Assembly: GCA_020726505.1 (NCBI GenBank)
Contig: JAHLEZ010000022.1
Location: forward strand, 744,001-808,000
Source of the DNA: Leptodontidium sp. MPI-SDFR-AT-0119
Lineage: Eukaryota > Ascomycota > Leotiomycetes > Helotiales > Leptodontidiaceae
Length of the DNA stretch: 64,000 nucleotides
Reading direction: 5' to 3'
The position numbers and the translations under genes are program-made. The notes beneath the pieces are model-generated. The model had not been told where the DNA came from, ran no database searches, and worked only from the letters and a program-made list of their open reading frames with translations. Of the stretch, positions 61,611 to 62,600 are shown piece by piece (positions within the stretch are counted from its first letter, which is position 1; each line of letters starts with the position of its first letter).

Positions 61611-62441
61611 CACTAACATATTAGTGGGCGTCTTGTCTTGTCGGGAAGGAAGACGAATGTAGCGTAGGGGAGGCACAGCTCCAGATTTGAGGCCGTAACT
61701 ATCTATCCTTAACCTAGAATTCCTTCCTCACCACTTCCTTGATATCGATAGTATACTACTACTTTACTCATAGCTTGCTTTGTACTGTTGCGGTGGGCTG
61801 ACTGGTGTGTTACTGGCGTGCTTTCTTCACTGCTAGTGAAGTGAAGTGAACCTCGATCGAATTGTTCGCCATGAGCACAGTTGCCAGTGAGGCAGGGCTA
61901 CCAGAGCTGGAGAGAGCGCACCCCCAGAAATCTCGGACGAGGAGGAGGATCAAATGGAGCGGACGTTGGCAGAAATTCGTTTGGCTTCTGATGAGGGAAG
62001 AAATGCTGACACAAGTCGATTCTAAAACTAGGGATTTTCAGAGCGTCAGTGTTGCTGTTATCATTATGTTTCACCATTATTGTTTAGAACGCGAATTCCT
62101 GTCTGCCATCTGCATGTCATTACAAAGTTGGGAGGCGATGCTCACGTGATACTCGAATGAACTTGACTTCTTCTTGAATCGAGCTGTTATACTTGTTTTC
62201 CAAGACACGATGAGGTACTATACTATCGCAGACTATTAGATCGTACTAACGGTCAGCATATTATCCATATGTATGCGAATCCTCAAACCCTATCCCACCC
62301 CGGCTTCACCTCGGACTCATCCCCACATCTCAACCCCACCCCAACCCACAAACTTCGACTTTTTGCAAATTCCTCTGCCCTATACAAAACCAAATAAGCA
62401 GAACCAATCATATCAGCAGACATATCAGCAGATAGACAACA
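61611..62441. other. Intergenic
   Basis: Contains an unsupported 96-codon frame (61,862-62,149 +) and AT-rich sequence. Nothing else seen. Confidence 0.45.
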
Positions 62442-62600
62442 TCTTCTGTGGCGCAATTGGCTAGCGCGTTCGACTGTTAAAGATCTGGATTCATTCAGTG
62501 ATTGCAAATCGAGAGGTTGGAGGGTATGTTATCTACAACTTCATTCAAAGCAGTTGAGTTGTTACTAATGACATTAACAGTTCGAGCCCTCCCAGAAGAG
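62442..62600 (+). tRNA. tRNA-Asn (GTT) with two introns, one of them in the T arm
   Basis: Removing two insertions leaves a 74-nt cloverleaf with no mispair: acceptor TCTTCTG (62,442-62,448) with CAGAAGA (62,593-62,599) and discriminator G; D stem GCGC/GCGC around AATTGGCTA; anticodon stem TTCGA with TCGAG (one G-T pair) and loop CTGTTAA (anticodon GTT at 62,476-62,478); variable AGGTT; T stem GGAGG/CCTCC with loop TTCGAGC. The order and sequence match eukaryotic tRNA-Asn closely. The first insertion, 62,480-62,507 (28 nt), is at the canonical 37/38 site. The second, 62,524-62,580 (57 nt), lies between T-stem base 53 and T-loop base 54; it starts GTATGT and ends TACTAATGACATTAACAG, like a spliceosomal intron. 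The A box is intact, and the insertion's last base G keeps a near-consensus B box (AGTTCGAGCCC). Confidence 0.85.
62524..62580 (+). other. 57-nt T-arm intron with spliceosome-like signals
   Basis: Donor GTATGT, branch-like TACTAAT (62,563-62,569 region) and acceptor AACAG have the form and spacing of the protein-gene introns in this window. An internal hairpin (ACAACT with AGTTGT) is possible. No clear bulge-helix-bulge for tRNA endonuclease is seen at its ends; only a four-base UGUU/AACA pairing. Which machinery removes it is unknown. Confidence 0.6.

Follow-up and report, generated by a model that had tools for sequence, protein, structure and literature searches.

We find that the 57-nt insertion in the T arm of a tRNA-Asn(GUU) gene is very probably a U2-type spliceosomal intron within a working tRNA gene; counting it, the genome has at least 30 insertions of this kind, spread over 23 or more tRNA genes. 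Intron anatomy, the identical exons of split and intact paralogs, intron bodies that have diverged while keeping their signals, and searches in which no intact tRNA-Asn gene was found together argue for U2-type introns in functional genes. In the textbook picture, eukaryotic tRNA introns occupy one site and are removed by a dedicated endonuclease, and we found no report of spliceosomal introns in tRNA genes in the open-access literature, as judged by titles and the opening of abstracts.

The window (the whole stretch of DNA analysed, 64,000 nt) has a single Rfam tRNA match at the gathering threshold, the tRNA-Asn gene. Its parts are listed below; the A-box and B-box regions were read from the sequence by the consensus of these boxes and presumably mark the internal promoter.

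62442..62600, + strand: tRNA-Asn(GUU) gene, three exons, including the discriminator G (Rfam RF00005, 31.5 bits; the spliced form is tRNA-Asn(gtt) by ARAGORN, the unspliced form is not)
62442..62479, + strand: exon 1, tRNA positions 1–37
62480..62507, + strand: canonical anticodon-loop intron at 37/38, 28 nt, not GT-AG
62508..62523, + strand: exon 2, tRNA positions 38–53
62524..62580, + strand: spliceosome-like intron, 57 nt, between T-arm positions 53 and 54
62524..62529, + strand: 5′ splice site GTATGT
62563..62569, + strand: branch-point sequence TACTAAT
62578..62580, + strand: 3′ splice site CAG
62581..62600, + strand: exon 3, comprising the T loop, 3′ T stem, 3′ acceptor and G73
62449..62460, + strand: internal Pol III promoter, A-box region (not split)
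62579..62589, + strand: B-box region in the unspliced gene, made up of the AG of the intron end and TTCGAGCCC
62392..62398, + strand: upstream element AAATAAG, 50 nt before the gene, which precedes many tRNA genes of the genome
62616..62628, + strand: T runs (5 and 7 T), the first 15 nt past the gene, Pol III terminator-like

The T-arm insertion is confirmed as real. Removing it along with the anticodon intron restores the cloverleaf of a 74-nt tRNA-Asn(GUU), as the sequence-only reading had proposed, and the coordinates which that reading gave for the gene (62442–62600), the intron (62524–62580) and the join (62523/62581) proved exact. With the anticodon intron removed beforehand and the excision length fixed at 57 nt, two of the 75 possible excisions left the 7-bp acceptor stem and the 5-bp T stem perfect and the T loop normal; these two are offset by one base and give an identical product, and one of them is GTATGT...ACAG. 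The signals that the sequence-only reading had picked out are present, with GTATGT...ACAG as the ends and TACTAAT at 62563–62569, and they support a spliceosomal anatomy for the insertion. Its expectation that a tRNA scanner would miss the gene was borne out by ARAGORN, which reported no tRNA in the window.

We also used a blind scan, in which GT-AG stretches bearing a branch point are removed and ARAGORN must then call a tRNA. Across the 64-kb window (578 scan windows, both strands) the Asn gene alone was positive, and 20 shuffles (27,421 spliced variants) gave no positives. A chance match for the Asn intron was rejected on the 57-nt excision test and the shuffles. In a blind scan of 2140 windows in 3-kb loci, the spliced positives were Asn, Ile, Lys and Glu genes only; blind scanning found Ala-UGC unaided, and missed Cys, which was found by eye, and Gln before the filter was loosened.

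The sequence-only reading had named the number of other tRNA-Asn(GTT) genes as a check, and had allowed that the window gene might be a dead copy alongside intact tRNA-Asn genes. That alternative found no support, as three genes were found in total, all three carry the insertion and an uninterrupted copy was not found. A 33-nt 5′ Asn pattern (up to 3 mismatches) matched three places in the genome, all with the insertion at 53/54. The 3′ pattern (up to 2 mismatches) matched the same three genes and one non-tRNA place, and a pattern for an uninterrupted T arm (up to 3 mismatches) matched one place, also non-tRNA. No uninterrupted gene for the same job was thus seen within 3, 2 and 3 mismatches, respectively, and a copy diverged beyond these limits could have escaped the searches. 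Intron sequence has diverged among the three genes, whose signals are GTATGT..TACTAAT..ACAG, GTACGT..CCTAAC..ATAG and GTAAGC..ACTAAC..CCAG. The Asn patterns had no matches in viral contigs or in prokaryote genomes; a DNA probe built from yeast and Neurospora tRNAs gave no match and is uninformative.

The window gene had been taken as a single affected gene. The gene is real, and the extent was underestimated, since 30 introns of the same type were seen in 23 of 74 tRNA genes. They are 50–62 nt long, GT/GC-AG and mostly equipped with CTRAY, and the split genes represent 16 isoacceptors plus one odd Leu-like gene, with 16 intron positions and up to three introns per gene. Cloverleaf positions below follow the numbering of this analysis.

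tRNA-Asn, three genes: 53/54
Arg-UCG, two genes: 47/48
Lys-UUU: 27/28
Ser-GCU on C4: 7/8 and 43/44
Ser-GCU on C12: 50/51
Leu-CAA on C14: 9/10 and 57/58
Leu-like copy on C3: 9/10 and 57/58
Ile-AAU, two genes: 6/7
Elongator Met: 7/8
Ala-AGC: 53/54
Thr-UGU, two genes: D loop
Thr-AGU: 10/11 (GC-AG) and 53/54
Ser-AGA on C6: 10/11 and 69/70
Arg-CCG: 59/60
Glu-UUC: 6/7
Gln-CUG: 10/11, about 25/26 and 67/68
Cys-GCA: 10/11 (GC-AG)
Ala-UGC: 56/57

The tRNA set of this 77-Mb genome (69 contigs) comes from scoring the best 63 of 2877 first-look candidates, and 23 of 74 is no census. Split genes were drawn from Rfam matches and from places found by A-box patterns (the short-pattern matches being read in part), a search partly steered towards odd genes. 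The 51 unsplit genes seen are made up of 48 plus L125, L137 and L138; contig C46 carries three of these 48, which are counted although they are perhaps organellar, while L013 and L021, which have no ARAGORN call, are in neither tally. Rfam returned 46 matches at E ≤ 0.001, four of them split (both Arg-UCG and two Ile), and 11 between E 0.001 and 10, comprising eight split genes, one locus without a solution (L154) and two left unread (C45:1757129 and C1:1832266). An Rfam scan of 20 loci at E ≤ 0.1 gave no match at five split-gene loci (L010, L113, L127, L128 and L130). No Asp, Phe or Tyr tRNA gene was recognised in any form among the tRNA candidates scored or read.

Several other loci were noted along the way. 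The Leu-like gene (L127/L142; C3, 816890–817300, − strand) shares both intron sites with Leu-CAA on C14 and has the anticodon CGG, a proline anticodon, together with one broken acceptor pair; it is either a decayed copy or a miscoding tRNA. A tRNA-Pro(UGG)-like gene (L167; C1:5539620–5539870, − strand) has an interrupted T arm without a clear GT-AG solution. Anticodon-loop introns are frequent in the genome, and gene copies of the same isoacceptor differ in how long these introns are and in their sequence; a Gly-CCC-like tRNA gene (L013; C2:157628–157795, − strand) carries an insertion of about 98 nt at the anticodon loop. Three similar short sequences (L132, L133 and L134, at C23:2956936, C34:1978531 and C45:651249) have an A-box-like start, T runs after them and no Rfam match at E ≤ 0.1, and are perhaps an unknown Pol III RNA.

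In some genes, paralogs fix the intron boundaries. Once spliced, the two split Ile genes are identical to a 74-nt intact paralog; the Ser-GCU genes on C4 and C12 have identical exons and different intron sites; and a single base separates the exons of Ser-AGA on C6 from an intact paralog. Because the paralogs fix them, the cut points of the Ile, Ser-GCU and Ser-AGA genes are not set by splice signals. Otherwise identical tRNA paralogs thus differ in the presence or absence of an intron. It is conceivable that the split genes are dead tRNA copies with caught introns or other insertions and that intact genes elsewhere supply the tRNAs: both kinds occur in some isoacceptors (two split and two intact for Ile, one split and three intact for Ser-AGA), the Leu-like gene on C3 has its CGG anticodon and broken acceptor pair, and since only the best candidates were scored, there may be intact genes for isoacceptors besides Asn. 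We nevertheless judge this improbable. Exons equal those of paralogs wherever paralogs exist, the Asn gene on C12 has compensatory changes in its acceptor stem (pairs 3-70 and 6-67 are changed on both sides), splice signals are kept while the intron bodies have diverged (similarity among 24 introns being confined to the Arg pair and one Leu pair), and no intact Asn gene was found.

The anatomy of the insertions is that expected for U2-type introns. A first set of 24 introns comprised 23 GT-AG and one GC-AG, each with 1–4 equivalent placements once the exons are given; the chance of 23 GT-AG at such placements is about 10^-49 if bases are independent, although splice signals were taken into account in choosing the exons, save those whose bounds a paralog fixes (Ile ×2, Ser-GCU ×2 and Ser-AGA), and the split genes were partly noticed through splice-like signals. 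Over all 30 introns the count is 28 GT-AG and two GC-AG. The branch-point motif CTRAY, expected some 10–15 nt before the 3′ end of a U2-type intron, was present in 22 of the first 24 and, in the extended set of 21 genes, near the 3′ end in 25 of 28, while the Cys-GCA and Ala-UGC introns both have TTAAC in its place. Mean length in the first 24 was 53.8 nt. After splicing, ARAGORN called a tRNA for 19 of 19 genes, although in three of them the anticodon intron led it to misplace the anticodon, and the Glu, Gln, Cys and Ala-UGC genes likewise gave a cloverleaf; in unspliced form, 13 of the 19 were missed and the other six were called with the wrong isotype or the wrong span. The likeness to U2-type introns of fungal protein genes extends from the GT(GC)-AG ends and CTRAY to the length of 50–62 nt, and the difference is that those described here sit in tRNA genes, at 16 cloverleaf positions. 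Two protein-gene introns of the window, the only two compared, are 50 and 47 nt long with similar signals. They belong to ARP4 (92% identity to a Cadophora gregata protein) and to a MepB peptidase gene (96% identity with Leptodontidium sp. 2; with a Cadophora, 88% across 81% of the query). These identities place the fungus in the Helotiales, near Leptodontidium and Cadophora.

A tRNA endonuclease could also in principle cut the insertions as true introns, in the manner of the ectopic introns of red algae and archaea. This genome in any case needs the enzyme for its anticodon introns, and ectopic and multiple tRNA introns are known from Cyanidioschyzon, nucleomorphs and archaea (PMC3978253, PMC4090602). 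The resemblance lies in introns outside the anticodon loop and several per gene, in archaea also at 53/54; those introns, however, fit a bulge-helix-bulge, to which the disrupted tRNA genes of Cyanidioschyzon are tied (PMC3978253), or, in Guillardia, are 3–24 nt long with unknown splicing, whereas those here are 50–62 nt with spliceosomal signals (PMC3978253, PMC4090602). An A-I-like pair with a bridging helix was seen in 0 of 24 introns versus eight of 14 anticodon introns and 7% of random cuts, and a bridging helix alone in five of 24 versus 17% at random cuts, which indicates no enrichment rather than exclusion. This pairing test is weak, because random cuts, at 7%, score almost as low as the 24 introns and because the anticodon cut was placed at 37/38, so that the anticodon helix is partly built in. 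All 30 introns fit GT/GC-AG, which the enzyme does not need, while the 14 anticodon introns of the same genes include none with GT-AG and one with CTRAY. Cleavage by the endonuclease therefore seems to us highly improbable.

Two other kinds of intron were rejected. Comparison of the 24 introns with one another by blastn (E ≤ 0.01) gave similarity only within the Arg pair and within the Leu pair at 57/58, which speaks against an introner-like mobile family; no shared element was seen among the 24, as similarity is limited to same-site copies. Group I and group II self-splicing introns need more length for their catalytic core than 50–62 nt affords, and no Rfam intron family matched in the window at the gathering threshold.

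Many of the introns lie near the edges of the internal promoter, with 11 of 30 between 6/7 and 10/11 and five of 30 at 53/54; the AG that ends an intron at these sites imitates bases of the exon. The sequence-only reading saw the nearly intact B box of the window gene as a possible reason why the insertion was tolerated. The observation stands for site 53/54, where it is a by-product, because any AG-ending intron there preserves G53. As a condition of tolerance it fails: four other split genes have an intron within the B box (at 56/57, at 57/58 twice and at 59/60), and an intact B box is therefore no general requirement.

Signals flanking the genes point to transcription by Pol III. Of the 21 split tRNA genes, 14 have AAATAA at −70 to −15, as do 24 of the 48 unsplit ones; among 4000 random positions of the window the share is 1.7%. 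A stretch of four or more T began within 38 nt after the gene in 21 of 21 split genes versus 13% of random positions, and a run of at least five T followed 17 of 21 versus 3%. The common AAATAA and the T runs together make Pol III transcription of the split genes likely. Avoidance of T runs within the introns, a possible Pol III footprint, was not significant (0 of 24 with at least five T, 1.7 expected, P 0.17); one Gln intron contains TTTTT, a possible stop for Pol III. Pol II transcripts are the usual substrate of the spliceosome, and some internal boxes are split, which would suit tRNA parts being read from Pol II transcripts and spliced as mRNA introns, with the tRNA not the product. The upstream AAATAA, shared by split and unsplit genes, and the T run behind each of the 21 split genes leave that reading very unlikely.

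Introns of messenger type in structural RNAs have some precedent. Rogers et al. (1993; cited in PMC11782384) reportedly described, to judge by the title, an mRNA intron in fungal nuclear 18S rRNA genes; there too a structural RNA gene would hold an intron of the messenger type, and the difference is that rRNA is a Pol I product. In the present genome a U6 snRNA gene (L158; C13:138532–138689, + strand) is interrupted by two GT-AG introns, one of 50 nt and one of 49 nt, the latter adjoining the catalytic region. Another U6-like gene (L157), at a distance of 21 kb, lacks an intron at that site and has a different 5′ part. An mRNA-type intron is described for U6 of fission yeast, S. pombe, which makes this U6 a Pol III transcript with a spliceosomal intron (PMC10484740), and the GT-AG introns of the U6 gene here are comparable. 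U6 is, however, a component of the spliceosome itself, where reverse splicing is the presumed source of its intron, whereas tRNAs are not spliceosome parts. The tRNAscan-SE 2.0 paper gives one intron as the limit for eukaryotic tRNA genes (PMC8450103).

Taking U2-type introns in working tRNA genes as the preferred reading, the following pathway can be proposed. RNA polymerase III would make the tRNA precursor, as suggested by the internal boxes, the upstream AAATAA and the T runs. The spliceosome would then excise the GT-AG introns, just as fission yeast U6 RNA is spliced by it, while tRNA endonuclease and ligase would take out the separate anticodon intron, and the tRNA ends and CCA would be made as usual afterwards. 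The order of steps, and use of the tRNAs by the cell, we infer. On the sequence evidence, it is quite likely that spliceosomal introns invaded nuclear tRNA genes in this helotialean lineage, and that essential tRNAs such as Asn(GUU) can be made only via the spliceosome.

Split genes of this kind would be hidden from current tRNA finders, as the 13 of 19 missed and six misread by ARAGORN illustrate. If the interpretation is correct, the spliceosome would process short, highly folded transcripts, probably made by Pol III, with exon pieces as small as 4–10 nt, and would handle introns within stems and promoter boxes. Identical tRNA paralogs with and without an intron offer a clean record of intron gain at base precision, by which the origin of spliceosomal introns becomes directly testable. 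The assumed division between the spliceosome and tRNA splicing would be broken, tRNA supply would be tied to the spliceosome and translation would depend directly on the mRNA splicing machine.
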